From: a virus
Virus record (IMG/VR): IMGVR_UViG_3300042292_000506
Coordinates: 1 to 30,002 of that record
Length of the DNA stretch: 30,002 nt
Reading direction: 5' to 3' (one strand)
Part shown: piece after piece, positions 3,058 to 30,002 of the stretch
Position numbering within the stretch: the stretch's first letter is position 1
Layout of the letters: each line of letters opens with the position of its first letter
Notes under the pieces: generated by a model
What the model saw: only the letters and a program-made list of their open reading frames with translations
Told to the model about the DNA's origin: nothing
Databases searched by the model: none
Made by a program: the position numbers and the translations under genes

Positions 3058-3819
3058 ATGTTTATTGAAAACAAATACAAGCGGTGGTATGATGCAATTG
3101 TCAGTAATGCACAATTGAGATCAACACCGCTTTCTTACAGTGAAAAACATCACATCATACCAAAATCAATCGGAGGACAAGATAGTAAAGATAATCTTGT
3201 TCATTTGTCAGGGCGCGAGCATTTTATATGCCATTGGTTGTTAATTAAAATAACAACAGGTAGCAATCGTGAAAAAATGATATATGCATTAAACGGAATG
3301 CAGCGTGTATCACGTACTCATCAACAAGAACGATATATTACTAAAATTACCAGTCGTGTATTTGCTAATCTTAAAGAAGAATTTAGTAGAATACATTCTG
3401 CACGACTTACAGGTCGCACCATGTCTACAGAACAAAAAGCTAAAATATCTGCAGCAGGAAAAGGAAGAATACAATCTCAAGAAACTATAGATAAACGCAG
3501 TGCATCTTGTACAGGTAAAAAAAGAACACTTGAACAAAAAGAACGTATGAGTATTGCTCAAAAAGGGAGAATAGCGAAAGAATATTCCCAAGAAGAAAAG
3601 AATATAATATCAGCAAAAATATCTGCAGCAAATAAAGGTAGAGTTATGTCTGATGAAACTAAAGTTAAACTTTCTGCGATTAATAAAGGAAAAAAGTTAC
3701 CGCCAAAAAGCGAAGAAACAAAACAGAAGATGCGTAAACCAAAAACAGAAGCACATAAAAAAGCAATATCAGACGCACGTAAAGCCAAATATGCAATACC
3801 CGTACCAAAGTCATTATAA
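3058..3819 (+). CDS. HNH homing endonuclease with NUMOD3 DNA-binding repeats
   Basis: The 253-residue protein has an N-terminal HNH domain: E29-K-H31-H32-I-I-P-K, N46 and H55 (in SGREHFICHW), the usual His-Asn-His spacing for metal-dependent nicking. From about residue 115 to the end there are at least four repeats of the type GRTMSTEQKAKIS, KGRVMSDETKVKLSAINKG and KSEETKQKMRKPKTEAHKKA. These are NUMOD3 modules, which bind DNA in the minor groove in phage homing endonucleases. The C-terminus is very Lys-rich. Ribosome-binding site AGGAGA sits 5 bases before the ATG. It is free-standing, not within an intron as far as can be seen, and lies just after the gp26-like gene. Family is secure; its target site is unknown. 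Confidence 0.88.
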   Translation: MFIENKYKRWYDAIVSNAQLRSTPLSYSEKHHIIPKSIGGQDSKDNLVHLSGREHFICHWLLIKITTGSNREKMIYALNGMQRVSRTHQQERYITKITSRVFANLKEEFSRIHSARLTGRTMSTEQKAKISAAGKGRIQSQETIDKRSASCTGKKRTLEQKERMSIAQKGRIAKEYSQEEKNIISAKISAANKGRVMSDETKVKLSAINKGKKLPPKSEETKQKMRKPKTEAHKKAISDARKAKYAIPVPKSL

Positions 3820-4439: not shown

Positions 4440-4880
4440 TCAACTGTTTTTATCAATCTTTAAATCTTTTACAGAGCCTTTACCAAGTTTAATCTGTATG
4501 ATACCGTTGTAGTTATTTTCCTTCAACAGCACACCTTCTGTAAATTGATAGTACGCTTCCATATAGTTTGTTTCACCGCGACTCTTACACAAATGTATAA
4601 TTTCGCGAGTAAACTGTTCTTTGCCTAAAGCTAATATATCTGCTACTAATCGACTCGAAGAACCCCAATAGTCTTTCCAATCAGTTTCGATTGTTTCTAG
4701 ACGTTTGTTCTTTTTGCCTTTTAGTGGTGGTCTTTTTTTGATAGTTTTAAAATACTTACGGCCAACATAATCGTAGCCGTTAGTAAGATTGGTTATTCTA
4801 TAAATGAAACCGTAGTATGCACCAATATCCTCAGAGTCAAATATTACACCATTGTACGTCCAAGGATATTCGTATGTCAT
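4440..4880 (-). CDS. GIY-YIG-like endonuclease family protein
   Basis: The 146-residue protein has a GIY-YIG-like start: Y23-G-F-I-Y-R-I-T, then Y38-V-G-R41-K, with later E108 (NYMEAYYQF) and N123/N125 that could match the family's Glu and Asn. A basic Lys-rich insert (residues 44-60) and W68-K-D-Y-W-G-S-S are typical of a family of small phage proteins usually annotated as Seg-like or putative endonucleases. There is no separate DNA-binding domain, so it may nick with low specificity or have lost activity. The gene starts 7 bases after the stop of the upstream basic protein gene. No clear ribosome-binding site is seen, so translation is probably coupled. An AATAAATA lies just upstream inside the previous gene's end. 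Family is fairly sure; activity is uncertain. Confidence 0.65.
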   Translation of the reverse strand: MTYEYPWTYNGVIFDSEDIGAYYGFIYRITNLTNGYDYVGRKYFKTIKKRPPLKGKKNKRLETIETDWKDYWGSSSRLVADILALGKEQFTREIIHLCKSRGETNYMEAYYQFTEGVLLKENNYNGIIQIKLGKGSVKDLKIDKNS

Positions 4881-6902: not shown

Positions 6903-7595
6903 TTATAAGTTTAACATCTTTGCATATTGAATGTAAACATTTTCGATTAAGTTAGTATCAGTGATATGATAATAAGGTCTAATCAATGTATTATCATACT
7001 CGTCCCATAAATTAATAGGGCATTCGTGCAATATATACTTACTAAAATCCCAAGTGACTGTTGGGTTAAACGATTTGTGTTCGAATCCACCTTGACTCCA
7101 TGCCCATGTTAAATTAGGCGTTGAGTCAAGTAATTGTAAAGTAAATAATATAAAAATATAGTTTTTTTCTATTAGATTAGGAAGATCCACTGCCTCTTTA
7201 AAAAATTCTTGAATTATATTAATTTTTTTGATAGTTAATATGTTGGCAGTATTTTTAGCCACGGTGTTCCACGAAGCACAAATCATCGATTTATCGTTGG
7301 AGGGCAAAGCAGCATTCCAATATCTAGATACATTATCTGATTGTATAAGAGTATCACTATTTAATGAAAATTCCTGTCTGACAGAACTGGTAGCATTATA
7401 AATTAAATAATCACAGTTATGGGCTAGCGCATGTTTAACTTGTAAATAAATTAAATAATTACTTGCACCGACACTAGATAGATTAATTATATTAATATTT
7501 GGATACGATAGTGTTAATAAATCAACCCAATTATCTCCATATTTAGGATCGGAACTACAAAAGCTATCACCGCAGATATATAAAGTTTTACTCAT
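6903..7595 (-). CDS. SGNH/GDSL hydrolase-like protein of unknown substrate
   Basis: The 230-residue protein starts MSKTLYICGDSF: G9-D10-S11 is the GDS block, S11 the candidate nucleophile. G43 (SSVGASN) and N67 (IYNATS) fit blocks II and III of the SGNH fold. The usual C-terminal DxxH block is not clear: H210 lies in YYHITDTN, with Pro rather than Asp three residues before it. The enzyme may use a variant catalytic site or have lost hydrolase activity. SGNH proteins act as esterases or acetyltransferases, often on glycans or lipids. The gene overlaps the upstream glycosyltransferase-like gene by 8 bases and ends 1 base before gp46. Sampled 60-base lines have about 23% G+C, lower than one sampled in gp46 (38%). 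Fold is likely; substrate unknown. Confidence 0.6.
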   Translation of the reverse strand: MSKTLYICGDSFCSSDPKYGDNWVDLLTLSYPNINIINLSSVGASNYLIYLQVKHALAHNCDYLIYNATSSVRQEFSLNSDTLIQSDNVSRYWNAALPSNDKSMICASWNTVAKNTANILTIKKINIIQEFFKEAVDLPNLIEKNYIFILFTLQLLDSTPNLTWAWSQGGFEHKSFNPTVTWDFSKYILHECPINLWDEYDNTLIRPYYHITDTNLIENVYIQYAKMLNL

Positions 7596-8745
7596 AGTAC
7601 CATTTCAACTTATCATCATTGATAAAATTACTGCAATAATGATTATAATTATATTCAACGATCTCTTGAACTTGATTGGCTAATTCATTAATTGGTCTAT
7701 TACTTAAATTAGTAAGCAAGGATATAATAGTAGTCATACGTATTGATGAATTATCGATGGTATCGTATGATTCGTCCCAAATTGATTCAAATGTTTTAAA
7801 TCCAAGTAATTTTAATTGAGCTAATGTTCCTTTAGAACCAACAAGAATAAATGGTCGTTTAGATAAAATACCCTTGATAGTTTTTTCAGAAATCCACGAA
7901 TATGGATAATCATATACTGTTTCTGTTATAACATAGATTAATGCATGTTGTAAGAAAGATGGTTGAAAATCGGAAATTCTATTATCGTGCAGATCGGGGT
8001 AACTTGATAAATCTTGATATTGATTTATAAATTTTTTCGAATATTGAGTTAATAGCGCATGATCGTTATTAGTAAGGAGCAGTAAGTCATTTATTCGAAT
8101 AAATGGAATAGTAGATCTTAATGCCACTGCCGTGTTTGTAATACCACAAGTATCTATCAATGGGCCTGTAGAATTAGGTGATGATCTAAACATATGGGAT
8201 ATATACCCTTGGTCTACTAGATTTGAATTAGCTAGATGACTAAGAAACAAAATTCGATGTGATCTTTGCTCACCATTTAAACAAATAAATAACCGACTTA
8301 ATTTATTAGTTGAATAATTAATAGGATTAACTAATTGTGGAGCGAGTAAAGGGATGAATATAGATTCAATCACAGTAGGAGGGCTTACATTAAATAACTT
8401 ACAAATATTGAATATTTCGGTATGCATACCATACGTTGCTGAAAAATAAATTAAAAATTCAGTAGGCAATCCGAAATATTGGCAACATCTAAAAAAATTG
8501 TAATTATTATTGCCCATTGGTACCTGCTGATTCTCTACATAATAATCAGTATCGATATTTAATATTAATATTCGTTGATTGGGTAAAAATGTATAGTCTT
8601 TCCATTTTTCTGCCCATGCGTAAAACTCATTGGGGTTATTATCGTGCAGGAAAAAATCAAAACAATCAACAAGTTCGAATCGATCAGTTAATTGTTTAAT
8701 TGTTGAATCTCGTAATTTATTCAATGAATTATCAGTATAGTCCAT
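7588..8745 (-). CDS. Glycosyltransferase-like protein
   Basis: The 385-residue protein has a recognisable C-terminal half. ALIYVITETVYDYPYSWISE, then KTIKGILSKRPFILVGSKGT and LAQLKLLGFKTFESIWDESY, resemble the donor-binding region of phage and bacterial glycosyltransferases (exostosin/GT10-like), where ISEKTIK and RPFILVGSxGxLxxLxxLGFKTF are characteristic. The N-terminal 250 residues were not matched to anything. LFICLNGEQRSHRI at about 150 may be the start of the transferase domain. No signal peptide or membrane segment is visible, so it should be cytoplasmic. It starts 2 bases after the stop of the dehydrogenase gene. With its neighbours it may modify a sugar on the virion or host surface, but that is inference. 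The family call rests on one motif region. Confidence 0.5.
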   Translation of the reverse strand: MDYTDNSLNKLRDSTIKQLTDRFELVDCFDFFLHDNNPNEFYAWAEKWKDYTFLPNQRILILNIDTDYYVENQQVPMGNNNYNFFRCCQYFGLPTEFLIYFSATYGMHTEIFNICKLFNVSPPTVIESIFIPLLAPQLVNPINYSTNKLSRLFICLNGEQRSHRILFLSHLANSNLVDQGYISHMFRSSPNSTGPLIDTCGITNTAVALRSTIPFIRINDLLLLTNNDHALLTQYSKKFINQYQDLSSYPDLHDNRISDFQPSFLQHALIYVITETVYDYPYSWISEKTIKGILSKRPFILVGSKGTLAQLKLLGFKTFESIWDESYDTIDNSSIRMTTIISLLTNLSNRPINELANQVQEIVEYNYNHYCSNFINDDKLKWYYE

Positions 8746-8747
8746 GA

Positions 8748-9362
8748 TTATTTTTTATTAATTGTAAATTTTTCAATGGTATCGTTATTAATTGCAAATT
8801 TTACCACTTCGACTATATGATTTACAGTAAGGTGCATCCGTGAATCATAGAATGATTTAATCACTTCGGGGGTATAGATTCCTCTCGCTTCTGGAAAATT
8901 AGTTTTTGTCCTACCAGGCCGAATTTCAATTAATTTATACTCAGACGATAATTCATCACGTAAACAATCGATAAACGTGGATAATCCAGATTTACTTGCA
9001 GCATACACACTATCGCCACCAATATTTTTTTCAACGCACCGACTAGTGATAAAAATAACCTTGCCTGATGCATTTTGATTGATAAATTTTTGAGTTAAGT
9101 ATATCGGCGCTCTGAGATTAGTATCTAAGATTCTGAAATAATCATCAACTTTATGAGTAACAAATGTATTTCCTCCGCCATTAGCATGACCGGCATTATT
9201 GATTAAGATATCAATTCCACTCAGGTTGATTTTTTCTAAATCACTAATTAAATTTAGATCATAATCTAGTCTGTTAATATCAACTATAGTATGATCTCTA
9301 CATAATTCGGATTTAAGAGCGAGTCCGATGCCAGATGTTGTACCAGTAATTGCGATTCTCAT
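8748..9362 (-). CDS. Short-chain dehydrogenase/reductase (SDR)
   Basis: The 204-residue protein carries the classical SDR motifs in order: nucleotide-binding T6-G-T-T-S-G-I-G13, N55-N-A-G58, N82, S107, and Y120-A-A-S-K124. Together these form the complete Asn-Ser-Tyr-Lys catalytic tetrad, so it should be an active NAD(P)-dependent oxidoreductase. The IRPGRTKTNF segment is the usual region after the sixth strand. It is shorter than most classical SDRs (about 250), with a reduced C-terminal substrate-binding part, so the substrate cannot be predicted. Its ATG overlaps the gp47 stop (ATGA), and the glycosyltransferase-like gene follows after 2 bases. It is therefore locked into the recombination operon. 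A role in sugar or cofactor metabolism during infection is inference. Confidence 0.85.
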   Translation of the reverse strand: MRIAITGTTSGIGLALKSELCRDHTIVDINRLDYDLNLISDLEKINLSGIDILINNAGHANGGGNTFVTHKVDDYFRILDTNLRAPIYLTQKFINQNASGKVIFITSRCVEKNIGGDSVYAASKSGLSTFIDCLRDELSSEYKLIEIRPGRTKTNFPEARGIYTPEVIKSFYDSRMHLTVNHIVEVVKFAINNDTIEKFTINKK

Positions 9363-10375
9363 AAATTCCTGTAGATGTCTAATAACAATGCTGGATTATA
9401 ATGCTCACTGTTAATAGCTGTTAGTTGACTAGTTACAATAGTGTCAATACTTTCAAATTGAATATTGCCTAACATAATATCTGTACCAACATCTGTATGC
9501 TTAACTGGAATTAGTGTAAGCTCACGTAGATTATAAGTGCCTACAAACGTTTCTTTAATAAAAGTTGCTTCTTCATAAGAAATATCCACATCAATGTTTA
9601 CACGACAGTGCATGCCTTTTTGTAATAATGCTTCTGGACTTTGTAGTATACCACTTAACGTGTAGACACGATACTTGGGTTGATCCGGCCAAGCATGAAA
9701 TGTGGGTTCTTCACCCCAGGATAATATCATCATACCGCGTTCATCATCGCCAGCGTCGGCATAGTTATGCGGGAATGCATTGCCAATATAGGTAATATTT
9801 TTACCAGTTTGACGTTTATGAAAGTGACCACTGTAGACATGATCAATATGCCCGAAGTCTTCGCGTCTAATCTCGCCGTGTTCTGGCATCTGTACCATGG
9901 CGTTCATATAGTAGCCCGGTAATTCGAAATGCCCAAACATATATTTGGCATTAATTTTTTGTATCTTTTTATGATCATCGCCTACTAACCACGGAACAAT
10001 ACTAACATCACCTTCTTGATAAAAGTCGTTAATAATTTCAATGTTAGGAATATGTCGTGCCCACTCAGCTGATTGTATATCACGCTTGTCGCGATAATAT
10101 AAGTCATGATTGCCCGGAATGAATATAACACGCTCAAACGCTTTGCCCAACAACTCTAACGCTGTTAGACTGTAGTTTAACGTGATGATATTAATTGCCG
10201 CTCGATTATTATGCCAGTCACCTAACATAAAGCAAACATCACAACCTTCTTCTTTAGCTTTGCTAATAAACCACTTAACAAAGTTTAAACAATCATCATT
10301 ATGTGTTTGACTATTTGACTTTAAGCCAAAATGCACGTCAGTCAGAACTGCTGCTTTTTTAAATAAATTTGCCAT
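9359..10375 (-). CDS. 47: gp47 recombination endonuclease subunit (Mre11/SbcD-like)
   Basis: The 338-residue protein (T4 gp47 is 339) is the metallophosphoesterase partner of gp46. Metal-binding motifs are all visible: D13-V-H15, G52-D53-W-H55, G88-N-H-D91, H149 (MFGHFELPG) and H184/H186 in YSGHFHKRQ. They predict a two-metal (Mn) nuclease that trims DNA ends. The C-terminal 120 residues would be the capping and gp46-contact region. The ATG at 10375 has no convincing ribosome-binding site. A TATACTAATTA sequence lies right upstream and is shared with the gp55 upstream region. Its stop overlaps the start of the SDR gene. The assignment is secure. Confidence 0.95.
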   Translation of the reverse strand: MANLFKKAAVLTDVHFGLKSNSQTHNDDCLNFVKWFISKAKEEGCDVCFMLGDWHNNRAAINIITLNYSLTALELLGKAFERVIFIPGNHDLYYRDKRDIQSAEWARHIPNIEIINDFYQEGDVSIVPWLVGDDHKKIQKINAKYMFGHFELPGYYMNAMVQMPEHGEIRREDFGHIDHVYSGHFHKRQTGKNITYIGNAFPHNYADAGDDERGMMILSWGEEPTFHAWPDQPKYRVYTLSGILQSPEALLQKGMHCRVNIDVDISYEEATFIKETFVGTYNLRELTLIPVKHTDVGTDIMLGNIQFESIDTIVTSQLTAINSEHYNPALLLDIYRNL

Positions 10376-16180: not shown

Positions 16181-18319
16181 ATGGCAATAGATCACAGAGT
16201 TGGTAGTAAGGTAGTTAAACATCTACGCAGAGAAGACGCTGCCGCCACTAGAGTTGACCCACATCCATACATTGGTATTGTTAAAAACAATTTAGACCCA
16301 ACTCGCGCAGGTAGACTACAAGTATGGATTCCGGATTTAGGTGGCGACCCTGACGAATCATCAAATTGGCGCACAGTTAGCTATGCTAGTCCGTTTATGG
16401 GTACAACTGATATCGCATCAAAATATGCAAACAAACCCAATAGTGATAATAAATTTGTAAATGTTCCACATACCTACGGTATGTGGATGGTGCCACCTGA
16501 TATTGGTGTAGAAGTAATTGTAATATTCATTGCTGGCGACCCGTTACGTGGATATTTTATTGCCTGTGTTAACTCAAAGGTTAGCAGACACATGATGCCA
16601 GGCTTGGCCAGCAGTAATAAGATCGATACATCGGGGGCATCAGCTGATACTAAAAAATCATATCAAAATGGAATTACTGCCCCTGTAGTTGAATATAACG
16701 AAAATGATCTTACAGCTAGATCAAATCCAAACTTTATTGATAATCCTAAACCAATACACGAACAACAATATAGTATATTGAAAACACAAGGGTTAGATAG
16801 AGACACTGCTCGTGGTACAATTACTAGTAGTAGCCAACGTGAAAGTCCGAGTAACGTTTTTGGTATTAGCACACCCGGTCGCCCATATGCAGATGATCCT
16901 GCTAACAATCGCGAAGCATATCTTGCCAAACAAAAAGCTGGCACGTTGACTGAAGACGATTATCGCTTTTCAACTCGTGTCGGCGGCCACACGTTTGTCA
17001 TGGATGACGGAGCCGTAACAGGTGAAAATCAATTAGTAAGATTGCGCACTGCTGGTGGTCATCAGATAATGATGAATGATACTGCGACTGACAATACTTT
17101 GTACATCTCGCATAGTGATGGTACAAGCTGGGTTGAATTAACTAAAGACGGTGCGGTCAATATCTATACAAATAATGGGTTTAATGTAAGAAGTGAAGGG
17201 TCTATTAATTTACATTCAGACAATAATATAAACCTTAATGCCGCTAATAAAATAAACATGAAATCAGGCAGTAAATTTCAAATTGACTGCGGTAGTTTTA
17301 ACATGTTGTCTACTGGGGTAGTTACTGTTGGCGCAGCTGGTACTATAGGATTACAAAGTGATTCGCCCGTTAACATCGACGCCGCAAGTATATCAATGAA
17401 AGCAGCCGGAGATATTGCTCACACCGGTGAATTGATTAAACAGAATAGTGGCGGCGCACAATCAGTTAATAAGCCAAAAGAAATACAAATCAATAATTTA
17501 TCAGACGTTGTACTTAATTCAACAGTTGGCTTATATACCAGTACCGGTAGTTTATCTTCGATAGTCACGGTCGCTCCTACGCACGAACCATATAGACGAA
17601 GTGCGCCATTGCCGTTTGCAGCGGCAGAATCAATTGGACAACAACCTGCTGAAACATATACAGGTAAGACTGATGCAACTAAAACAGCCGCCGGCACAGG
17701 AGTTAAAAATCCAGCCACTGAAGTTGATCTACGAAATCAACCTACCACTGACTGTTCAATTGGCGGGCTAACTTCTGCACAAATGACAGCGTACTATGCA
17801 GTTATAGGTAAAAGCGAAAGCGGATCTCCCGGACGAGGTGGACAAGCAAACGGTGAAAGCGGATATCGATGTATCAATAGTATCGGATTCGTAGGGAAAT
17901 ATCAATTTGGATATCCTGCATTACAGGATGCCAAACATGTTAAAATGTCCTGCGGTAGTAATGCACAGTTACGCAACCCAAATAACTGGATTGGCAAAGA
18001 CGGCATTGATAGCTTAGAAAAATTCCTAAACAGTCCAGCCATACAAGAAGCTGAGATGTGTGCTTATACCAAACGCAACTACAAAACATTATGTAATATT
18101 GGTACTGTGACTAAAGATACTCCTCTCGAAGATGTAGCGGGATTATTGGCAGTTAGTCACTTACTAGGCGCTGGCGGCGCCAAACAATGGCGTGGCGGTA
18201 GTGGCAAAACAGATGCTTTTGGTACTACCGGCGATAATTATTTTGCCAAAGGCAAATATGCCGTTGCAGTACTAGGACCAAAAATGGCCACATTAGATCA
18301 ACCAATTAAATCCACATAA
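16181..18319 (+). CDS. 5: gp5-like baseplate spike with C-terminal lytic domain
   Basis: The 712-residue protein (T4 gp5 is 575) has an N-terminal OB-fold: HPYIGIVKNNLDPTRAGRLQ, VWIPDLGGD, typical of gp5/VgrG. Residues 265-420 show short beta repeats (GGHTFVMDDG, GAVNIYTNNGFNVRSEGSIN, INLNAANKINMKSGSKFQID) that form the trimeric needle. From about 520 a separate domain follows: IGKSESGS with candidate catalytic E546, then INSIGFVGKYQFGYPALQDA, DGIDSLEKFLNSPAIQEAEM and LLAVSHLLGAGGAKQW. These resemble a transglycosylase/muramidase-type domain of phage structural lysins. In T4 the lysozyme domain lies between OB-fold and needle; here it is at the C-terminus. Ribosome-binding site AAGGAAAG lies upstream of the ATG. 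The spike would pierce the outer membrane and open peptidoglycan. Confidence 0.85.
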   Translation: MAIDHRVGSKVVKHLRREDAAATRVDPHPYIGIVKNNLDPTRAGRLQVWIPDLGGDPDESSNWRTVSYASPFMGTTDIASKYANKPNSDNKFVNVPHTYGMWMVPPDIGVEVIVIFIAGDPLRGYFIACVNSKVSRHMMPGLASSNKIDTSGASADTKKSYQNGITAPVVEYNENDLTARSNPNFIDNPKPIHEQQYSILKTQGLDRDTARGTITSSSQRESPSNVFGISTPGRPYADDPANNREAYLAKQKAGTLTEDDYRFSTRVGGHTFVMDDGAVTGENQLVRLRTAGGHQIMMNDTATDNTLYISHSDGTSWVELTKDGAVNIYTNNGFNVRSEGSINLHSDNNINLNAANKINMKSGSKFQIDCGSFNMLSTGVVTVGAAGTIGLQSDSPVNIDAASISMKAAGDIAHTGELIKQNSGGAQSVNKPKEIQINNLSDVVLNSTVGLYTSTGSLSSIVTVAPTHEPYRRSAPLPFAAAESIGQQPAETYTGKTDATKTAAGTGVKNPATEVDLRNQPTTDCSIGGLTSAQMTAYYAVIGKSESGSPGRGGQANGESGYRCINSIGFVGKYQFGYPALQDAKHVKMSCGSNAQLRNPNNWIGKDGIDSLEKFLNSPAIQEAEMCAYTKRNYKTLCNIGTVTKDTPLEDVAGLLAVSHLLGAGGAKQWRGGSGKTDAFGTTGDNYFAKGKYAVAVLGPKMATLDQPIKST

Positions 18320-18338: not shown

Positions 18339-18716
18339 ATGGCTATTTTATATAAAGGTTTCTCAACAGTAGGACGAAATAAAAAGTTTCGTCTAACTGA
18401 CTTTGAGTTAATTAAGCAAGATTTAACAAATCACTTTCAAATCCGCAAAGGTGAGAAACTGATGAATCCTAATTTTGGCACTATTATATGGAACGTTTTA
18501 TATGATCCATTCACTCCTGAACTTAAGAGTGCAATTATAGCTGATATTAAAGCAATTGCCGCCTATGACCCACGTGTTTCTATCGACAATGTTATCGTTA
18601 CTGAGTATGAAACTGGTATCCAAATTGAACTTGAACTACGCTATCTACAGACAAATCAAACAAATTTAATGAATCTTAGATTCAACAATCAAAACAGAAC
18701 ACTCACAACATATTAA
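18339..18716 (+). CDS. 25: gp25 baseplate wedge protein
   Basis: The 125-residue protein (T4 gp25 is 132) belongs to the GPW/gp25 family, the most conserved contractile-tail wedge protein. Characteristic segments are FRLTDFELIKQDLTNHFQIR, KGEKLMNPNFGTIIWNVLYD and PFTPELKSAIIADIKAIAAY DPRV. It forms the inner wedge core with gp6 and starts sheath assembly. It lies 19 bases after gp5 and 51 bases before gp6, the standard gp25-gp6 order. AGGA lies 11 bases before the ATG. Confidence 0.93.
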   Translation: MAILYKGFSTVGRNKKFRLTDFELIKQDLTNHFQIRKGEKLMNPNFGTIIWNVLYDPFTPELKSAIIADIKAIAAYDPRVSIDNVIVTEYETGIQIELELRYLQTNQTNLMNLRFNNQNRTLTTY

Positions 18717-18767: not shown

Positions 18768-21700
18768 ATGGCTATTACCACAAGACAATCAGGTTTATTA
18801 GTTGCGGAAGACTGGACACGAGTCTATCAAACCTTCCGCAATGCGGACTTTCAAAGCTATGACTACGAAACACTTCGTAAGTCAATGATTGATTATTTAC
18901 GCTTATATTACCCAGAGGACTTTAACGACTTTATTGAATCAAGTGAGTTTATTGCACTGATTGATTTAATTGCGTTCCTAGGTCAAAGTCTAGCTTTCCG
19001 TGGCGATTTAAACGCACGTGAAAACTTTATGGATACTGCACAACGTCGTGACAGTGTGCTTAAATTAGCCAAACTAATTTCATACAATCCTAAACGTAAT
19101 ATCCCTGCCAGTGGATTCTTAAAAGTTGACAGTGTAAGTACAACTGAAACTGTATACGACAGTAACGGTATTAATTTGTCCGGTTTAGTAATCTCATGGT
19201 CCGATTCAGCAAACGACAATTGGTATGAGCAGTTCACCGCAGTGATCAATGCAGGTTTATTATCGACTCAATCTGTTGGTAAACCTAGTAACTCACAATT
19301 AATTAATGGTATAACCAACGACGAATATCAAATAAATTTAGTACCGAGTATTATTGCAACATATAGTTTTACAACTAAAATTGAAGGCACAACAACTAAA
19401 TTTGAAATGACTAGTCCGACAAGTGCAGGTAGAACTTTTGTATACGAAGCTGCACCTCGTCAAAATCAACCATTTAATCTACTTTATCGTAATGATAATT
19501 TAGGTAATACCAGCAATAATACAGGGTTCTTTACCTATTTTAAACAAGGTGAATTAAAATCACTTGATTTTACATTCCAAGAAAGCACACCAAATCGTGT
19601 GTATAGTGTTAACGTAGATAATATTAATAATACTGACATATGGTTATACAGTTTAGATGCGCAGGGCCTACCAAATGCAGTATGGACACAGGTTGCGACA
19701 GTAAACAATACCAACGTTATCTATAATAAAAGCACTAATAAATCTGTATTTCAAGTCAACACCAGAGCCAGTGATCAAATTGATCTAGTGTTTGGTGATG
19801 GGTCTTTTGCTAATATACCTCAGGGTAATTATAGACTATATTATCGTGTAAGTAACGGTGCTGATTATAAAATTACTCCTGATGAGATGCAAGGTATAGT
19901 TGTACCGATTAATTACATCAGCCGAAGTGGTCGTATTGAAACACTTACTGTTCGTGCAAGTTTGCGCTACACAGTAGCCAACGCTAGTTCACGTGAAACA
20001 CTCGACGAAATACGTCAAAAAGCACCACAACAATATTACACACAAGATCGTATGGTAACAGGCGAAGATTACAACATCTTACCTTATACCTTGTTCAGTA
20101 ATATACTTAAAGTTAAAGCAGTTAACCGTACTAGTTCTGGTATTAGTCGCTACTTAGATGTTATTGATACAACTGGAAAATATTCAAGTACTAACATCTT
20201 TGCAGATGATGGTGTACTATATCGTGATCCATTTGTCAACACCTTCTCTTTTGACTATAACACAAGAAATGATATTTACAAAGCAATCTACAATAAAGTA
20301 AAACCAGTGGCGTCAGCACAGGAAACAATACAATTTTTCTACAGCAAGTACTCGACTATCACTATTACTAACGCATACTGGAATTATTCAACAACTGTGG
20401 CCAATGGGTCCACTGGATATTTCATCGATTCAAATGATACTATACTTCAAGTTGGCGACATAGTATCTACAAATAACAAATTTATTAAACAAAGTTCTAT
20501 AATTAAATTCTCTGCAGGCGCCGGTAACTATTTTGATGCACGTAATACTATTCAACCCGGTATACCCAGCAAGGCAGGCGACAAATATTTCATCTACGCA
20601 AGTGTTCAACAGGTTATTGGTGATGGAACCAATGGTGGCGCAGGCAATTTAGCCAACGGATCTGGTCCGATTATATTAGGTGAGCAAGTACCCGACGGTG
20701 CATTGGCTATTGCAGTTTACGCAGTATTTGACACTGACTTTTCAACAGCATTGGTAGATTCTATTGTAGAGTATGTGCAAGCATACGAAGATTTCGGGCT
20801 ACGATATGATATTGATACTACATCATGGAAATTGATATTACCAGGAGATTTAGATACAGGTGAATTTAATTTAGGCTATGCAGGTAATACCAGCAGTACA
20901 GGATTAGATGCCAGCTGGCTGATACGTTTTAAAACAGTGGGTCAAACCTACACAGTATTATATCGCGGATTAAATTATGTATTTGAAAGTGTAAGAGAAA
21001 CTAACTTCTACTTTGACAATACAGTTAAAGTATTTGATCCAAAAACTGGACTTACAGTACACGATAATATTAAAATATTAAAAGTTAATAGTAATCCAGA
21101 TGATGCAACTCCGTTGGCCTTGGATTATACATGGTACATTTACAAAAATATTATCGAAGTTGATGGCTACGAAAATCCTAGTAAAATTTTAGTTACATTT
21201 TCAGACATAGATAATAATGGTATTTTAGATAATCCAGAATTATTTGAATTAATTGTTAATCCCGATATCGATACTAATAGCAAATATGTATTTTTCCAAT
21301 CAACATACGGATATGATAATTTTGTTACACAAACTTTAGTAAGTAATGACCTAGTAGAATCAACTTATACAACTTTGGTCGCAGCACAAGCCGATGCCAC
21401 TTTGTATACGTCTGGCAAATTATTTTATATTGCGCCAGAAAATAAATTCTACCAACTAACTGTTACTGGTTCAGCATACGTATTAAACGAAGTATTTGAT
21501 TATACTGCTAAAGTGGGACGTCAAAATTTGTACTTCCAATATAGACATAATAGTCCTAACTATCGTCGTATTGATCCAAGTCCAAATAATATTATTGATT
21601 TGTATCTATTAACAAAACAGTATTCAACTGATTATACGGCATGGATACAAGATAGCACCGGCACTGATGCTGAGCCAACTGCACCAACAGTTGATGCACT

Positions 21701-22151
21701 GAGTACAGAATTTAGTAGTTTAGAAAATTACAAAAATTTAACAGACACTATCATTTATAATCCTGCTAAATTTAAACCAATATTTGGTGCCAAGGCGCCA
21801 GCTGCATTACAAGCAACATTTAAAGTTGTAAAAAATGCAAGTATTATTGTCAGTGATAACGATGTTAAAACTAAAGTCATTGATGCAATTAACACTTATT
21901 TTGATGTTGCAAACTGGGACTTTGGTGAAACATTTTACTTCAGTGAATTAAGTGCCTATCTGCATAGTGTGCTCGCACCAAACATTGCAAGTATAACAAT
22001 TGTTCCGTCAAGCGAATCGAGTACATTCGGTAGCCTGTTACAAATCAATGCAAACTATAACGAAATTATTGTAAGTGCGGCCACCGTGGACAATGTACAG
22101 ATTATTAGTGCAATTACCGCGGCGCAAATCAACCAAACTGTATTGGCTTAA
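18768..22151 (+). CDS. 6: gp6 baseplate wedge protein (long form)
   Basis: The 1,127-residue protein is a gp6/baseplate-J-type wedge protein, far longer than T4 gp6 (660). The N-terminus is typical: DWTRVYQTFRNADFQSYDYE, LRKSMIDYLRLYYPEDFNDF, FLGQSLAFRGDLNARENFMD, TAQRRDSVLKLAKLISYNPK. J-like features follow at about 330-450: FGDGSFANIPQGNYRLYYRV and AVNRTSSGISRYLDVI. Extra beta-rich sequence fills about 480-930. The C-terminal segment (about 960-1110) returns to a gp6-like end with IIYNPAKFKPIFGAKAPAAL and DVKTKVIDAINTYFDVANWD. gp6 dimers form the ring that triggers baseplate conformational change. The gene has its own late promoter module. Confidence 0.9.
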   Translation: MAITTRQSGLLVAEDWTRVYQTFRNADFQSYDYETLRKSMIDYLRLYYPEDFNDFIESSEFIALIDLIAFLGQSLAFRGDLNARENFMDTAQRRDSVLKLAKLISYNPKRNIPASGFLKVDSVSTTETVYDSNGINLSGLVISWSDSANDNWYEQFTAVINAGLLSTQSVGKPSNSQLINGITNDEYQINLVPSIIATYSFTTKIEGTTTKFEMTSPTSAGRTFVYEAAPRQNQPFNLLYRNDNLGNTSNNTGFFTYFKQGELKSLDFTFQESTPNRVYSVNVDNINNTDIWLYSLDAQGLPNAVWTQVATVNNTNVIYNKSTNKSVFQVNTRASDQIDLVFGDGSFANIPQGNYRLYYRVSNGADYKITPDEMQGIVVPINYISRSGRIETLTVRASLRYTVANASSRETLDEIRQKAPQQYYTQDRMVTGEDYNILPYTLFSNILKVKAVNRTSSGISRYLDVIDTTGKYSSTNIFADDGVLYRDPFVNTFSFDYNTRNDIYKAIYNKVKPVASAQETIQFFYSKYSTITITNAYWNYSTTVANGSTGYFIDSNDTILQVGDIVSTNNKFIKQSSIIKFSAGAGNYFDARNTIQPGIPSKAGDKYFIYASVQQVIGDGTNGGAGNLANGSGPIILGEQVPDGALAIAVYAVFDTDFSTALVDSIVEYVQAYEDFGLRYDIDTTSWKLILPGDLDTGEFNLGYAGNTSSTGLDASWLIRFKTVGQTYTVLYRGLNYVFESVRETNFYFDNTVKVFDPKTGLTVHDNIKILKVNSNPDDATPLALDYTWYIYKNIIEVDGYENPSKILVTFSDIDNNGILDNPELFELIVNPDIDTNSKYVFFQSTYGYDNFVTQTLVSNDLVESTYTTLVAAQADATLYTSGKLFYIAPENKFYQLTVTGSAYVLNEVFDYTAKVGRQNLYFQYRHNSPNYRRIDPSPNNIIDLYLLTKQYSTDYTAWIQDSTGTDAEPTAPTVDALSTEFSSLENYKNLTDTIIYNPAKFKPIFGAKAPAALQATFKVVKNASIIVSDNDVKTKVIDAINTYFDVANWDFGETFYFSELSAYLHSVLAPNIASITIVPSSESSTFGSLLQINANYNEIIVSAATVDNVQIISAITAAQINQTVLA

Positions 22152-22181: not shown

Positions 22182-25100
22182 ATGGCGACAAAAAAGACTT
22201 CAAATTTTCTTCCTACCATATTTCAAACCGACGTTAACAATAAGTTCTTGTCGGCTACTATGGATCAGTTAGTAACTGAACCAAACTTAAGAAATATATA
22301 TGGCTACATCGGAAGAACATTTGCGCCGACATATAAGAACAAAGACAGTTACGTAATTGAAAATTCAGCCGATAGACAAAAGTATCAACTTGAGCCCAGC
22401 ATAGTAGTCCGCAATGACCAAAAAGAAATTACATTCTTTGCTGGCTATAATGACATATTAAATAAAATTGAATACTACAGTGGATTAACTGCAAATCATG
22501 ATAGACTATTTGATGGCGAATATTATAGTTTTGATCCGCAGATTTCTTTTGATAAGTTTGTTAACTTCAGTCAATACTATTGGCTTGCTAATGGCCCAGA
22601 CCCAGTTGATGTTAATACAAGTGGAGTTGATTTAGAAAAAACATTTACAGTTACTCGTAATGCAAACATATCTCGTTACGATTTCACCACTGGTGGATTA
22701 GTAAAAAATACAATTACCTTGGCACGCGGTGGTCAATATACATTTGAAGTTGATCAGCCGAGCGCAGGCTTTTGGATACAAACTGAACTTGGAGTTGACG
22801 GACTAGTAAATGCAACTCCTACAGTTAGCACACGCGATGTACTTGGCGTTACTAATAACGGTGCAGAAACAGGTACAATTACGTTTAATGTTCCACAATC
22901 AACTGCGCAAGAACGATATGTATTAATGAATGTAGTAGCTAACGTAGAATATGCTGTTCCTCTTGCCTATGCGGATATACAAAATCGTACGCTTAGTCAG
23001 TTTCTTGCAGCTTTTCCTGCGTATGCTGGAATCACAGGTCAACTAAATGGCAAAACTGCAATATTCATTAATCAAAACTTATTAACTAATCGCGGTGAAG
23101 AAGCATGGACCATGCCCGAAGTTATTGATCCAGTCACTGGATTAGTTGTACCAGGATACGATGCTGGCACAGTGATTCCAACTGCTCAACGATACGGAGT
23201 ATGGAGAGTACAGTTTAGTGATATCGGCAACGTCGACGATCCACTAATTCGTTTGGTGCAAGTTCAAGATGTGTTGCTTAACGAAAAAGTCTACATCAGA
23301 TCTGGGCTCGTTAATGCCAATAAAGAATTCTTTAAAGATTACGATGAGTTCTTCCATGTTGTTCCTGTGATTTCAAGTATACAAGATACACTATACTTCC
23401 AAGACGGTAGTGACCCATCTATCTACGGTACAATTAAACTTGTTGATATTGCCGGCTGGGAAATTGATATTGAAAACGACATATTAGGAAAACCTGACTA
23501 TACTAGTCCTAATGGAGTAATTTTTACCAGCGGACTAAAAGTAAGTTTTGGTTCTGATGTTACTCCGGCATCCTATCAAAATAAAGAATATTATGTTGAG
23601 AATGTAGGAGCACCGACCGGTATACAACTAATTGACGTAGAATTGTTAGTTACACCCGAGTTATTTAATGATGAAATAGCATTAAATTATCCAGATGGAT
23701 TGCCGGGCAATGTGTCTAATGCAGAATATATCACAATTAATCGTTGTAGTAAAGATTTAAACCCATGGTCTCGTGGCAATCGTTGGTTCCATCGTGATGT
23801 GATTAAATTAACTGCCGAATACAATAACGTAATTGTTACCTACGATCAAACATATCGTGCCCAACGTCCAATTGTACAATTCGAAGCAGATCTACAACTA
23901 TTTAATTTTGGTAGAATTGGTAAACGACCTATTGATATTTTAGACACTACCACTCGAGATGCATTTAATGAATTGAATGGACAAGTATTAACTGTTGCCG
24001 GCGGCGTTACGTTAGTTGATGGCATGCGAATTATATTCACTAATGATAATGATCCAGTGGTGCGTGATAATATCTATGTAATTAATTTAGTACAAACTCA
24101 ACTTGATGATCAGGGATTATTAATAGGTCCTGTATATGTAAATTTAAATCCTGCAGATGATGCCAACAATGAAATTTATGATACTGTAGTGGTAAAATCA
24201 GGATTTTATAAAGGAACAGCGTGGTGGTACAACGGAGACACTTGGACACAAAGTCAAACAAAAACTAGTCTACAACAAGATCCATTGTTTGATGTATATG
24301 ATGCTACTGGTACAAGCCTAGCCGATTATGAATCTAGCACATTTGCAGGTACACGATTATTTGGCTATAACAGAACCAGCACAAGTACAATAGCAGATAC
24401 AGTATTATACTTTCCATTAAAATACAGAACATTCCGTGCGCAAGGCGATATTGAATTTTCTAACTACTTTGACACAGATACATTTAGCTATGTGCGTGAT
24501 AGAGTGTTATACACTGAACGAATTGCTACCGGCTTCCTACAACAAATTGTAGACAGAAATACTGTGATTCCAAAAAATAATTGGAATACCGTAGTTGAGC
24601 CACTTAAACAGTATCAATTAATTACATACATCTATGATGGTATTAATAGTCCTTTTAAAATTGATGTTACTCCGGTAGTATCAGCATCTGTTCCTCATGT
24701 TAAAGTTTATAAAAATAATGCATTCTTAAGAAAAACACAATGGACTTTAACGAATAATGCATTAACATTGTCTACTGCGCCAGCGATTGGCGACAAGATT
24801 GACATCTTGGTTTATAGTACTGAAGTTAGTGCCCTTGGTCAATACCAAGTACCGCAGAATTTAGATTTAAATGCACAAAATATTGATTTAGAATCATTGA
24901 CTTTGGGACAAATTAGAAATCATTTAGTTGAGCTAAGTCAAAATAGTAGTGAGCTAGAAGGCGACATACTTAGTGAAAGTAATCTTAGAGATATTGAGAT
25001 TAAATCACAAGGCGGTAACATACTGCAGCACAGTGCACCGATATCAAATGCAGCATTGTTTTTATTAAACGACAGCACAAACTTTATCGATGCAATTCGT

Positions 25101-28100
25101 TATGCACAACAAGAATATGCTAGATTTAAAAATAAATTTTTAGAACTAAGTGCTACACTATCGGGCATACAACCAACTGATCCTGTAGCCAGTGTAGATT
25201 TAATCTTAACAGAAATTAATAAGATTAAAAACAAAACATTCCCATGGTTCTACAGTGACATGGTACCGTATGGTACATTAAAAAATATTGTCAATGGTGT
25301 AGGTTATACAATATTTGATCCATTGGTACGTTCATATGAAATTACTACAGTATTTGATGCATTTGCATTAGGCAATACTGCGGTATTGGTTTATTTAAAT
25401 GATGTACAATTGATCATAGATAGAGATTACACATTTGATACAGATCGTCCAGCAATAACATTTAAGGATACTGTTACATTAGAAGTAGATGACAATGTTA
25501 AATTTGTAGAATATCAAGATACCAACGGATCTTATGTGCCAGAGACTCCAAGTAAGTTAGGTTTGTATCCTAAGTTTATTCCTGAGATCTTTTTAGACGA
25601 TACGTATCGCACACCTATTAATGTTATTCGTGGACATGATGGTAGCATAACTCCGGCATTTGAAGATTATAGAGATAGTTTTGTATTGGAATTAGAAAAA
25701 CGTATATACAATAATATTACTCTAAGAGATGCAGGCAGTTATCGAGACATATATGCAGTTATGCCGGGTAAATTTAGAACAGGTGATTACTCGTTAGCCG
25801 ATGCCAATCAATTGTTGTCTAAGAATTTCTTAACGTGGATTGGTAATAATAAAATTGAGTTTACAGTCAATGATACATTTGAAAGCAATGATCCATTTAC
25901 ATGGAACTATGGTCGTTTTGTTGATAGAATCGACGGTGAAATATTACCTGGTAGTTGGAGAGCCTGCTATCAATATTTTTACGATACAATACGTCCACAT
26001 TTGACGCCTTGGGAAATGTTGGGTTTTTCTACTATGCCATCATGGTGGGTAGAAGAATACGGTCCTGCACCTTATACAGGTGGTAATAAACTACTATGGG
26101 ATGATTTAGAACTGGGATTAATTAAATATGGTGAACGTGCTGGTATAGATACTGTTTTTGCTCGTCCTGGATTATCAGCAGTTATCCCAGTTGACGTAAA
26201 TGGACTTTTATTGAGTCCAGCAGCAATTATGACTGGATCGTTTAACTCTGTCAGAGCCGCAACAGCATGGGCAGTGGGACAGCAAGGACCAGTTGAAACT
26301 GCATGGCGCAACAGCAGTGATTATCCATTTGCTGCACAGCAAGCACTGGCATTGGCTAAACCAGCTAGATACTTTGGCTTATTAATGGATGTATCACGTT
26401 ATTCAAAAAATAATGTATTAGAACAATATATAACTGATACAAATGATCATATTAAACAAACATCATTGACATTTAATGGTGACACAACATCTGGCACAGT
26501 AGTTAGAACAGCGGGGTATATAAACTGGATCGCAGATTTCCTAGTAAATCAAGGAATTAATCCTTCTACTGTTATCACTCCGTTATTGAAAAACTACGAA
26601 GTTAACCTTGCATACAAAATGGCCGGGTTCAGTGACCAAAAATATCTACAGGTGTTAGCAGAGCAAAGTTCACCGACAAGTACAAATGATAGTATTATTA
26701 TTCCAAATGAAAACTATAATGTACATTTGTATAAATCAACTCCAGTTGATAGAATAGCCTATAGCGGTGTGATTGTTGAAAAAACAACAAATGGATATAG
26801 TGTACGTGGATATAATTTATCTAATCCGTATTTTACTATCATACCAAGTGTTATAAACACAAACGCATATAAAATTACTGTGTTAAACAATTCAGTAACT
26901 GTGTTTAGGGATTATCAAAACTTAAAACTAACAGTGCCCTACGGTTACGAATTTAATACTCAACAACAGATAGCTGATTTTTTAATTAGTTACGAAAGAC
27001 ATTTAATGGCTCAAGGGTTCACATTTAATGACACCGATGAGCAACTAGGTGAAACTCGTAACTGGAAACTATCGACTAAAGAATTCTTGTTCTGGGCACA
27101 ACAAGGTTGGGCACCTGGTAGTATCTTAGTATTAAGCCCAGTGGCTAATGTGATAAATGCCGTTACTGTTGGTGCAATCACAGATGCTATTACAGATAGC
27201 CAATATGGTTCTAAAGTATTAGATCAAAATTTTGCATTGGTCAAGACTACGAACTACAATGTATTGCGTAGTCCAACTTCATTCAAGTTAACATTGACTA
27301 ACGATGCAGTTATTGGCTATATTGAATTAAATCTAGTGCAATACGAGCATGTATTAATATTCGATAATACAACAGTGTTCAACGATATTATATACAAGCC
27401 AGAACTTGGTAATAGACAATTTAGATTAAAATTAATTGGACAAAAAACAGCAGATTGGGACGGCAGTTTAAGTGCACCAGGTTTTATTTACAATTCTGGT
27501 GACGTAGATGCTTGGACTGGTAACAAGGATTATTTAAAAGGCGACATGGTACAATATAAAAATCAATATTACGTTGCACTACAAAATATTTCAGCAACAA
27601 TTGAATTTGACTTTGCCTACTGGAAACAAATTTCTACAAACGAAATTAAAAAGGGATTGTTGCCTAACTTTGCTACTATCGCTGCTAAATCTCAAGTATA
27701 CTATGATTCATATACAAACTTTAAAGATGCAGACCAAATCAAATACAGTCATGGTTTAATTGGATTTAAACCACGTCAATATCTAGCAGATCTCGGATTA
27801 AGTGACACTACACAAATTGAATTGTATAAAGGATTCATTAAACAAAAAGGATCTGCTAATGCAATTAATCAATTGTCAAATGCAGAATTTAATAATCTAA
27901 GCAGTGCTATAAATTTCTATGAAGAGTGGGCAATTCGTGTCGGCGAATACGGTGCGCTAGATACAAATCCATATGTTGAAATTGCACTTGACGAAAAAGC
28001 ATTTTCAGTTAATCCAGCAATTGCTACTTTTGTAACTGCTGCTGACAGTGACGGTGTAACTACATTTAATAAATCACAACTATATAAATCAACTGAACAA

Positions 28101-30002
28101 TATGCAGGTACTATTGCGTTAGATAGAAATGCGCAAAGTGATTACAATAATGATATCGCCACTGCTGGATATGTAAATATCGACGACGTTGATACTACTA
28201 TATTCGATCTTGCTAATTTTACAGATTTAAATAATCAATTAGCTGATATTGGTACTGGATACAGCATTTGGTGCGCAAAAGACTTTTCGCAAAACTGGAA
28301 TGTTTATCGAGTATCAGAAACTGACAATCATGTGTTGTTGGTATCTAACTCACTTGATGGATTTGTGACATTTACCACAGATGATCCGCACGGATTGTCT
28401 GCAGGTGACATATTCTTAATTCGTAGCTTCACTATAGAATTTGATGGATTCTATCAAGTTGAAGAAGTGGTTGACCTTAATAATATATTAGTCAAATACT
28501 CCGGTGATACAACACAATTAACCACACTCGACGGTGACGGTATGTTGTTTATTTTAGACAGCATACGATTCCAGTACATGGAAGATGCACGACTATATTC
28601 TCCACGACATCAATGGAAAGTTGGTGAAAAGATTTGGATTGACGACGATGCCGAAACAACAGCAGTACAAGGTCAACCATACGGCACGCAACCAAGTGGC
28701 ACATGGAAAGTATATGAAAAAACACGCCCATGGGAAATGGGGCAACGCTTAGTAAAACCAACTAGCGAATATTCAGCAAACATAGGCTATGGTCAAGCAT
28801 TAAAAATGATTGACAACGCTGAGCAAAATATTTTTGTTGGTACTACGTTGTACGCAAACTTATCTGTTTCAACTAACACAGGCGCGGTAAATGTGTTTGA
28901 TAAAGTTATGGCAGTGGCATTAAGTGGAAATGTCACTGTAACAGCCGGCGATTACATAACGCAATCATCGACTGGTGCTAATTTAACTGTATTAACAAGT
29001 GGTGCTAACATTAGTAATATCTCATTAAGCTATTATGGAACTACAACATTAACTACTGGCATTAACAACGGCAATATTGCAATCAACGGATCTAATGTTG
29101 CTGTTTATCCAACCACAATAACTAACAATGTGTATGTTGGAACTACAACTATAACACCAGATGGTGCAAATACATTTACCTATGGTTCACATATTGACAC
29201 AGCAGTCGATGGCCAACAAGTTCGTCTAGCAGTTAACGCACCAACAAGTTCTGGCCTGGCTGGTGCAGCTAATGTTGGTTTAATCTATACCTATAATAAA
29301 CTCGAAGGCGAAACAACTTGGAATCGCGGACAGGTTATTACAGGTAATGTTAGTGCAACAAGTGGACAATTTGGCTATGGCTTTGCATTTGATGAATTAG
29401 GTCACTGGTTATATGTCGGTGCACCTTACGAAGCGACTCCTAAAGTTTATGTCTACGGCTTAAAACGATTTGTAACGGGTAATATTGGAACAGTTACTAC
29501 ATCTGGTTCAGTATCATCTATAACAGTGCCGTTTACTCGAGACCCAGCAGTCAGTTCAACTGATGCTAACTCGTTAGTAGTTACAACTGCAACACGTACA
29601 TACATTCCAAATATTGATTACACATTATCTGGCACAACGATAACATTTATATCAGGCAATGTAAACGACACATTCACAATTTCACAAGGACCATATTACA
29701 CCTTAGTTAAAACAATCGACGGACCAGTAGGTAGTGAATTTGGTTTTTGTATTGATGCAAGTTTAAATGGTGCACAGCTCGGTGTAGGCGCACCTGCAGA
29801 TACAGTAAACGTAGCAGTATTCAGCGACGGAATAACAACAATTGACCGATCAATTCCTGTAGGGTCCAATACTGCCTCGATTACTGTAGATGGTAATGTA
29901 TTACCGCGTATATCATATGTTGAAAATGTAAGTGCTGGTGCCGTTTATGTTTATGATCGTGTAATTGAAGCATTTGATAGTACAAATGGTACAGTATATA
30001 CT
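22182..30002 (+). CDS. Giant baseplate wedge-type structural protein (gp7 position), 3' end outside window
   Basis: I read this frame line by line: 2,607 codons from ATG 22182 (MATKKTSNFLPTIFQTDVNN) to the window edge without a stop. It follows gp6, where T4 has gp7 (1,032 residues). Segments I associate with giant virion proteins of marine T4-like phages include NPWSRGNRWFHRDVI (about 527), RAQRPIVQFEADLQLFNFG (about 557), PSKLGLYPKFIPEIFLDDTY (about 1123), RDSFVLELEKRIYNNI (about 1165), RPHLTPWEMLGFSTMPSWW (about 1272) and HGLIGFKPRQYLADLGL (about 1858). At about 1778 there is a carbohydrate-binding-module-like W..NKDYLKGDMVQYKNQYYVA. From about 2202 FG-GAP-like repeats appear. It probably forms the outer wedge scaffold with glycan-binding extensions. 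gp7 equivalence is by position, not by clear sequence match. Confidence 0.7.
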   Translation, partial: MATKKTSNFLPTIFQTDVNNKFLSATMDQLVTEPNLRNIYGYIGRTFAPTYKNKDSYVIENSADRQKYQLEPSIVVRNDQKEITFFAGYNDILNKIEYYSGLTANHDRLFDGEYYSFDPQISFDKFVNFSQYYWLANGPDPVDVNTSGVDLEKTFTVTRNANISRYDFTTGGLVKNTITLARGGQYTFEVDQPSAGFWIQTELGVDGLVNATPTVSTRDVLGVTNNGAETGTITFNVPQSTAQERYVLMNVVANVEYAVPLAYADIQNRTLSQFLAAFPAYAGITGQLNGKTAIFINQNLLTNRGEEAWTMPEVIDPVTGLVVPGYDAGTVIPTAQRYGVWRVQFSDIGNVDDPLIRLVQVQDVLLNEKVYIRSGLVNANKEFFKDYDEFFHVVPVISSIQDTLYFQDGSDPSIYGTIKLVDIAGWEIDIENDILGKPDYTSPNGVIFTSGLKVSFGSDVTPASYQNKEYYVENVGAPTGIQLIDVELLVTPELFNDEIALNYPDGLPGNVSNAEYITINRCSKDLNPWSRGNRWFHRDVIKLTAEYNNVIVTYDQTYRAQRPIVQFEADLQLFNFGRIGKRPIDILDTTTRDAFNELNGQVLTVAGGVTLVDGMRIIFTNDNDPVVRDNIYVINLVQTQLDDQGLLIGPVYVNLNPADDANNEIYDTVVVKSGFYKGTAWWYNGDTWTQSQTKTSLQQDPLFDVYDATGTSLADYESSTFAGTRLFGYNRTSTSTIADTVLYFPLKYRTFRAQGDIEFSNYFDTDTFSYVRDRVLYTERIATGFLQQIVDRNTVIPKNNWNTVVEPLKQYQLITYIYDGINSPFKIDVTPVVSASVPHVKVYKNNAFLRKTQWTLTNNALTLSTAPAIGDKIDILVYSTEVSALGQYQVPQNLDLNAQNIDLESLTLGQIRNHLVELSQNSSELEGDILSESNLRDIEIKSQGGNILQHSAPISNAALFLLNDSTNFIDAIRYAQQEYARFKNKFLELSATLSGIQPTDPVASVDLILTEINKIKNKTFPWFYSDMVPYGTLKNIVNGVGYTIFDPLVRSYEITTVFDAFALGNTAVLVYLNDVQLIIDRDYTFDTDRPAITFKDTVTLEVDDNVKFVEYQDTNGSYVPETPSKLGLYPKFIPEIFLDDTYRTPINVIRGHDGSITPAFEDYRDSFVLELEKRIYNNITLRDAGSYRDIYAVMPGKFRTGDYSLADANQLLSKNFLTWIGNNKIEFTVNDTFESNDPFTWNYGRFVDRIDGEILPGSWRACYQYFYDTIRPHLTPWEMLGFSTMPSWWVEEYGPAPYTGGNKLLWDDLELGLIKYGERAGIDTVFARPGLSAVIPVDVNGLLLSPAAIMTGSFNSVRAATAWAVGQQGPVETAWRNSSDYPFAAQQALALAKPARYFGLLMDVSRYSKNNVLEQYITDTNDHIKQTSLTFNGDTTSGTVVRTAGYINWIADFLVNQGINPSTVITPLLKNYEVNLAYKMAGFSDQKYLQVLAEQSSPTSTNDSIIIPNENYNVHLYKSTPVDRIAYSGVIVEKTTNGYSVRGYNLSNPYFTIIPSVINTNAYKITVLNNSVTVFRDYQNLKLTVPYGYEFNTQQQIADFLISYERHLMAQGFTFNDTDEQLGETRNWKLSTKEFLFWAQQGWAPGSILVLSPVANVINAVTVGAITDAITDSQYGSKVLDQNFALVKTTNYNVLRSPTSFKLTLTNDAVIGYIELNLVQYEHVLIFDNTTVFNDIIYKPELGNRQFRLKLIGQKTADWDGSLSAPGFIYNSGDVDAWTGNKDYLKGDMVQYKNQYYVALQNISATIEFDFAYWKQISTNEIKKGLLPNFATIAAKSQVYYDSYTNFKDADQIKYSHGLIGFKPRQYLADLGLSDTTQIELYKGFIKQKGSANAINQLSNAEFNNLSSAINFYEEWAIRVGEYGALDTNPYVEIALDEKAFSVNPAIATFVTAADSDGVTTFNKSQLYKSTEQYAGTIALDRNAQSDYNNDIATAGYVNIDDVDTTIFDLANFTDLNNQLADIGTGYSIWCAKDFSQNWNVYRVSETDNHVLLVSNSLDGFVTFTTDDPHGLSAGDIFLIRSFTIEFDGFYQVEEVVDLNNILVKYSGDTTQLTTLDGDGMLFILDSIRFQYMEDARLYSPRHQWKVGEKIWIDDDAETTAVQGQPYGTQPSGTWKVYEKTRPWEMGQRLVKPTSEYSANIGYGQALKMIDNAEQNIFVGTTLYANLSVSTNTGAVNVFDKVMAVALSGNVTVTAGDYITQSSTGANLTVLTSGANISNISLSYYGTTTLTTGINNGNIAINGSNVAVYPTTITNNVYVGTTTITPDGANTFTYGSHIDTAVDGQQVRLAVNAPTSSGLAGAANVGLIYTYNKLEGETTWNRGQVITGNVSATSGQFGYGFAFDELGHWLYVGAPYEATPKVYVYGLKRFVTGNIGTVTTSGSVSSITVPFTRDPAVSSTDANSLVVTTATRTYIPNIDYTLSGTTITFISGNVNDTFTISQGPYYTLVKTIDGPVGSEFGFCIDASLNGAQLGVGAPADTVNVAVFSDGITTIDRSIPVGSNTASITVDGNVLPRISYVENVSAGAVYVYDRVIEAFDSTNGTVYT
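27513..27635 (+). other. Carbohydrate-binding-module-like segment within the giant protein
   Basis: Residues 1778-1818 read W-T-G-N-K-D-Y-L-K-G-D-M-V-Q-Y-K-N-Q-Y-Y-V-A and end with YWKQI. The order W...Y..GD.V.Y.N..Y.A...W is that of small chitin/cellulose-type binding modules (CBM5/12-like). The match is by pattern only. Confidence 0.4.
28785..29964 (+). other. FG-GAP/integrin-like beta-propeller repeats within the giant protein
   Basis: Three repeat units are visible. Near residue 2202: GYGQALKMIDNAEQNIFVGT, later GAVNVFD. Near 2395: FGYGFAFDELGHWLYVGAP, then KVYVYG. Near 2519: FGFCIDASLNGAQLGVGAP, later GAVYVYD. The FG...(8-12 residues)...VGAP...VYVY order is the FG-GAP signature of integrin-alpha-type propellers. 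Thr/Ser/Asn-rich beta inserts separate units. More blades probably lie past the window edge. Confidence 0.65.

Follow-up and report, generated by a model that had tools for sequence, protein, structure and literature searches.

Analysis of the giant gene at the end of the window (the entire virus record, 30,002 bases) reveals that its FG-GAP repeats belong to one predicted seven-bladed propeller of the integrin type. Comparison with related phage proteins places this propeller as an internal insertion between two conserved scaffold blocks, not as a C-terminal fusion, and sequence identities and trees indicate that it has been exchanged between lineages, with domain precision, in the relatives L035 and L005/L058. 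We think it reasonably probable that the wedge scaffold bears the propeller as a secondary adhesin, exposed at the surface, where it would contribute to adsorption by binding a ligand.

The giant gene and its genomic setting

The source of the giant gene is a jumbo-type phage related to T4, and a T4-like baseplate cluster is present within the window (Table 1). The giant gene is a wedge-region gene, judged by its position; the gap between it and the gp6-like gene is 30 bases. In a profile search its product matches PHROG 10938, 'virion structural protein', with an E-value of 1.5e-269, and the alignment of full-length relatives over the scaffold identifies it as a member of this family. Two homologues, PA5oct gp355, which is flagged ESI-MS/MS, that is, detected in virions, and CBB_236, represented by 21 peptides from virions (PMC5259590), have been found by mass spectrometry; the homologues are therefore virion proteins.

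Table 1. Positions of the giant gene, its domains and the neighbouring baseplate genes in the window
Feature	Residues	Position	Strand	Basis
T4_baseplate (PF12322) protein		1930-2784		Pfam
gp5-like baseplate hub and tail lysozyme gene		16181..18319	+	PHROG search
gp25-like baseplate wedge gene		18339..18716	+	phrog_43
gp6-like baseplate wedge gene, adjoining the giant gene 5'		18768..22151	+	phrog_10646, phrog_219
Giant wedge-region virion protein gene, 5' part (2,607 codons)		22182..30002	+	PHROG 10938
CBM5/12-like small module	1773-1818	27498..27635	+	sub-threshold Pfam, relatives, fold match
Scaffold motif AGYVN; site 1 immediately before, empty in window	1995	28164..28178	+	
Beta-barrel domain ahead of propeller	2043-2127	28308..28562	+	predicted fold
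Site 2 insert: blades ~1-4 of the seven-bladed FG-GAP integrin-type propeller	2182-2607	28725..30002	+	
~80-residue GNVTVTAGDYITQ module within blade 1	2245-2328	28914..29165	+	

Elsewhere in the window, two ORFs near the baseplate genes appear on reading to be probable homing-endonuclease-like ORFs, one HNH-like (3058-3819, plus strand) and the other GIY-YIG-like (4440-4880, minus strand). The window also has a gp46-like gene (5129-6901) and a gp47-like gene (9359-10375). Between these lie three minus-strand genes (6903-9362); on reading, one product has a GDS motif, one resembles short-chain dehydrogenases and the third is of unknown type. Though flanked by two nuclease genes, the trio is seemingly unconnected with DNA repair.

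The earlier note had reported at least 2,607 residues with no stop, and the frame is indeed open from 22182 onwards, lacking a stop because the record ends. Relatives in IMG/VR supply the missing 3' part of the gene. The orthologue L006, 94% identical across all 2,607 residues, has a closed gene encoding 4,272 residues, and the remaining complete forms in IMG/VR range from about 3,650 to 5,280 codons. In the PDB, neither the first 2,085 residues nor the C-terminal region gave a credible sequence match. Relatives of the giant gene are also found on contigs L169-L177, which have been assigned to MAGs of bacteria or archaea (Pelagibacter, Rickettsiales and others) but are probably misbinned phage; three of them show propeller-profile matches as well.

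The repeats form a single predicted propeller

FG-GAP-type repeats, said by the earlier note to begin at about residue 2202, start at about 2203, and each of the 26 aligned homologous regions matches Pfam FG-GAP_2, with a best E-value of 4e-34. The repeat motifs in the window are YGQALKM at residue 2203, GSHIDTAV at 2335, FGYGF at 2397 and FGFCI at 2520. The identity of the repeats rests on the relatives, as the window protein alone gives no Pfam FG-GAP match; a family profile of the propeller regions finds integrin alpha-4 in the PDB (4.5e-12).

The full-length gene of L006 holds the complete propeller, spanning residues 2182-2956. An AF2 model of its residues 2140-2990 (pLDDT 77.5, pTM 0.80) has a beta-propeller fold. 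Model residues 43-817, equivalent to the whole propeller, superimpose on the integrin alpha-M head with an rmsd of 2.5 Å for 364 residues (Z 34.4), and CIAO1, a seven-bladed WD40 protein, aligns to the model over 331 of its 336 residues. Because the model matches both the integrin alpha head and CIAO1, the repeats are predicted to form one seven-bladed propeller; the plural propellers of the earlier note reduce to one. Across 29 propeller inserts the loose DxDxDG calcium-loop motif usually occurs as one degenerate copy, for example DASLNG, and the canonical integrin calcium loops are mostly missing.

That the repeats are the product of chance or of faulty assembly is a notion that might be entertained for a window cut at the record end and lacking an FG-GAP match of its own. 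We attach practically no probability to it, and other contigs already refute it: L007, from a separate dataset, shares 17,295 bases with the window at 100% identity, and 58 distinct propeller inserts are found in viral contigs. The confidently predicted integrin-type fold argues against it also.

Blade lengths in the propeller vary through insertions concentrated in certain loops. In L035, L006 and the window the ~80-residue GNVTVTAGDYITQ module lies within blade 1; some phages have it at other propeller positions, and in many relatives it also occurs near the C-terminus. L006 has a second copy at residues 4084-4163, the copies being 75% identical, and from its distribution the module looks like an intragenic shuffled unit.

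The propeller is inserted into a conserved scaffold

The description of the protein as ending in propeller repeats does not hold for the full-length gene, in which the propeller stops at about residue 2956 and conserved scaffold follows. The propeller appears C-terminal in the window because the record breaks off inside about blade 4. Some 1,300 residues come after the propeller in L006, starting with a scaffold block (approximately 2957-3560) that is about as conserved as the part preceding the propeller.

Seven cultured relatives, including RaK2, CBB, Vibrio 2.275, PA5oct, SCTP-2 and Atu_ph07/Phosso, were compared with the giant protein. Alignment reveals that the scaffold flanks are common to all seven, none of which gives a blade match with the propeller profile. 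Between the flanks, RaK2, CBB and Vibrio 2.275 have a short stretch only, and PA5oct, SCTP-2 and Atu_ph07/Phosso carry different sequence. Pfam gave no match for the inserts of SCTP-2, Atu_ph07 and PA5oct; reading by eye, we would guess that of SCTP-2 to be LamG-like. No further relatives were confirmed with SCTP-2 as the query.

In related phages, 89 distinct inserts occupy the site, comprising 58 propellers, 16 of the SGNH clade, six YHYH and nine others; these labels were given by script, a profile match defining the propellers and clade membership the SGNH and YHYH classes. Apart from the propellers and the YHYH domains, the inserts at this site are of other kinds or short. A YHYH domain is present at the window's propeller site in L068 (L068:16400-17998; Pfam 5e-31). 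Its YHYH relatives are L067, L090-L093 and L106, of which L090 was read by eye. At site 1, an SGNH/GDSL hydrolase is matched by Pfam in L064 (7.6e-15), L163, L168 and L162. In this hydrolase, additional beta domains separate the GDS block from the remainder. The L064 copy retains the motifs FGDS, GLND and DGIHP; L168 has FGDG instead of FGDS, a Ser to Gly replacement suggesting that some copies may be inactive.

A scaffold tree of 86 rows was built on the block that follows the insert. In it the SGNH clade and the YHYH clade are sisters (support 100), nested among propeller-bearing phages. This is explained most simply if the propeller was lost or replaced in these clades, the root and deep branches of the tree being uncertain. 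Insert type changes three times in the 86 rows, at clade level only. The idea of freely mobile cassettes has been toned down: the insert types are distributed by clade, and the exchange that the data show is among propeller alleles.

Exchange of the propeller between lineages

L035 and L006 are 65% identical in the scaffold before the propeller, 57% after it and 83% within it. Measured in 20-codon windows, their identity at the nucleotide level jumps at residue 2180 from 61% to 87% and is back to about 56-73% past residue 2940, so that the breaks coincide with the propeller borders. The reverse pattern is seen in L005/L058, with 80% identity in the scaffold and 58% in the propeller. When 17 relatives are compared in all pairs, the propeller-minus-scaffold difference in identity has a median of -6.3 points (SD 6.0), the propeller diverging faster than the scaffold; the values are at least +15 for L035 against the window clade and between about -14 and -18 for L005. 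In trees, L035 joins L125 by its scaffold (support 98, quick method) and falls within the window clade by its propeller (100/100).

Chimeric assembly is unlikely for L005/L058 because the pattern comes from two metagenomes and one of the contigs is 329 kb long. For L035, known from a single contig, a chimera is less improbable; its propeller DNA is only 73-90% identical to that of L006, which is not expected of a simple chimera of the sampled contigs.

The carbohydrate-binding-like module and the barrel

The CBM5/12-like pattern that had been placed at about residue 1778 corresponds to a small fold that the evidence supports as real, though the match lies below the Pfam threshold and sugar binding is unsupported. 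CBM_5_12 matches residues 1777-1805 with 18.7 bits against a cut-off of 26.2 (E 0.0018), weak matches occur in 11 of 21 family members (best 4.8e-5), and another lies near L006 residue 3700. The predicted structure of the module superimposes on residues 74-118 of the tail spike gp124 of Agrobacterium phage Milano with an rmsd of 1.4 Å for 45 residues (Z 7.4, 27% identity). From this modelling we conclude that the same small fold is present in another phage tail protein.

The predicted beta-barrel ahead of the propeller resembles the barrel of an endosialidase (4hiz_A; Z 9.5, rmsd 2.5, 82 residues). It likewise resembles ubiquitin E1 and tail proteins, and since these include unrelated barrels, we draw no functional inference from the likeness to endosialidase.

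Possible roles of the propeller

In the reading that we favour, the giant protein is a scaffold of the baseplate wedge region with the propeller slotted in at one fixed place. The propeller would face outwards from the baseplate and may bind a glycan or a protein of the host surface; as a secondary adhesin beside the tail fibres, it would help to keep the baseplate in place or to orient it. The propeller is absent, exchanged or substituted in related phages, and this suggests exposure to the outside world, probably to the host cell; recombinational exchange and replacement would fit an exposed module under selection. The persistence of the scaffold in cultured relatives that lack the insert, the YHYH domain at the propeller site and the SGNH hydrolase at the nearby site all favour an adhesin, as do the faster divergence of the propeller and the concentration of its length changes in certain loops. 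Against it, the canonical integrin calcium loops are mostly missing, clade-level changes of insert are slower than would be expected of a main host-range determinant, propellers can be purely structural in phage tails, and relatives have fibre-like genes of their own downstream. The suggestion in the earlier note that host binding is built into the wedge is thus partly sustained: by position the gene belongs to the wedge region, the propeller is of the integrin type and binding is its most plausible role, but it is an internal insert and we infer the binding.

Relatives have separate fibre-like genes downstream of the giant gene, one with a Peptidase_G2-type domain, and the propeller would therefore add to the tail fibres, not replace them. 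These genes also bear on the main rival explanation, in which the propeller is a structural dock for another protein of the tail, be it a fibre, a fibre connector or an adjacent wedge, and changes with its partner. Lying right after the giant gene, they could co-vary with it; the T7 nozzle has a beta-propeller with a purely structural role in the tail (PMC6702177), and the scaffold functions without a propeller in cultured phages. A conserved dock, however, does not call for the YHYH replacement or for the nearby hydrolase, intact in its motifs in L064, in the sister clade, and the exchange in L035 spans the propeller and ends at its borders. We regard such a dock as rather unlikely.

Alternatively, the propeller may raise encounter rates by binding a target other than the host, for example mucus, particles or extracellular matrix. 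FG-GAP propellers are known in cell-adhesion proteins, the integrins, and the same fold is found on many viral proteins; the present results do not distinguish ligands of the host from others. We judge this improbable, and continue to prefer a secondary adhesin for the host surface.

More tentatively, it is quite possible that the wedge protein is a modular receptor platform in which at least two fixed sites take adhesin or enzyme domains (propeller, YHYH, SGNH hydrolase and others), so that part of host specificity would be set in the wedge, independently of the tail fibres, by cassettes spread through recombination. The host range of a phage is commonly deduced from its tail fibres and spikes. 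Should jumbo phages have an exchangeable binding domain in the wedge scaffold, the giant gene ought to be considered as well when host range is predicted. Domain-precise exchange makes the question of host specificity testable.

Comparison with known systems

The giant protein resembles T4 gp7 in the position of its gene directly after gp6, but gp7 has 1,032 residues compared with about 4,270. Homology was considered but not detected: the position fits and the sequence profile does not. With hhalign, three regions of the giant protein each gave a probability below 1% against gp7, and the gp7 Pfam domains (V, VI and helical) match T4 gp7 and are not found in the window protein. The predicted structure of window residues 1060-2200 only (pTM 0.57) gave small local Foldseek/VIA matches; gp7 is not among the structure matches listed for this region, which may nevertheless have a gp7 fold. 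T4 gp7 itself (L083:7061-10156) contains stretches that read as Asp-box-like, for example SNDKGQTW, and may thus have a propeller of another kind in its own wedge protein.

The cultured members of PHROG 10938 (RaK2 ORF070w, CBB_236, PA5oct gp355 and Atu_ph07 AUZ94962) share the scaffold on both sides of the insert and likewise follow gp6 directly, the product being a virion protein in PA5oct and CBB. Unlike the window, none of the seven has an FG-GAP propeller at site 2.

With integrin alpha the propeller shares FG-GAP_2 repeats, seven blades and fold (Z 34). It differs in its location inside a phage baseplate protein, its degenerate calcium loops, the absence of a beta chain, and its large extra loops and 80-residue module.

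FG-GAP and YHYH domains have already been named on some uncultured phage proteins; within the literature library searched, FG-GAP does not occur alongside baseplate and phage, nor alongside bacteriophage and tail fiber. Beta-propellers of phage tails and baseplates are already known. Those of phi11 Gp45 and of gp131, which in phiKZ lies at the periphery of the baseplate, have a proposed receptor role (PMC4901313) and resemble the present case in being beta-propellers at a phage baseplate. They belong to different proteins, however: in gp131 the seven-bladed propeller is C-terminal, and Gp45 is a trimeric receptor-binding protein, whereas the propeller of the window is an insertion in the wedge scaffold.
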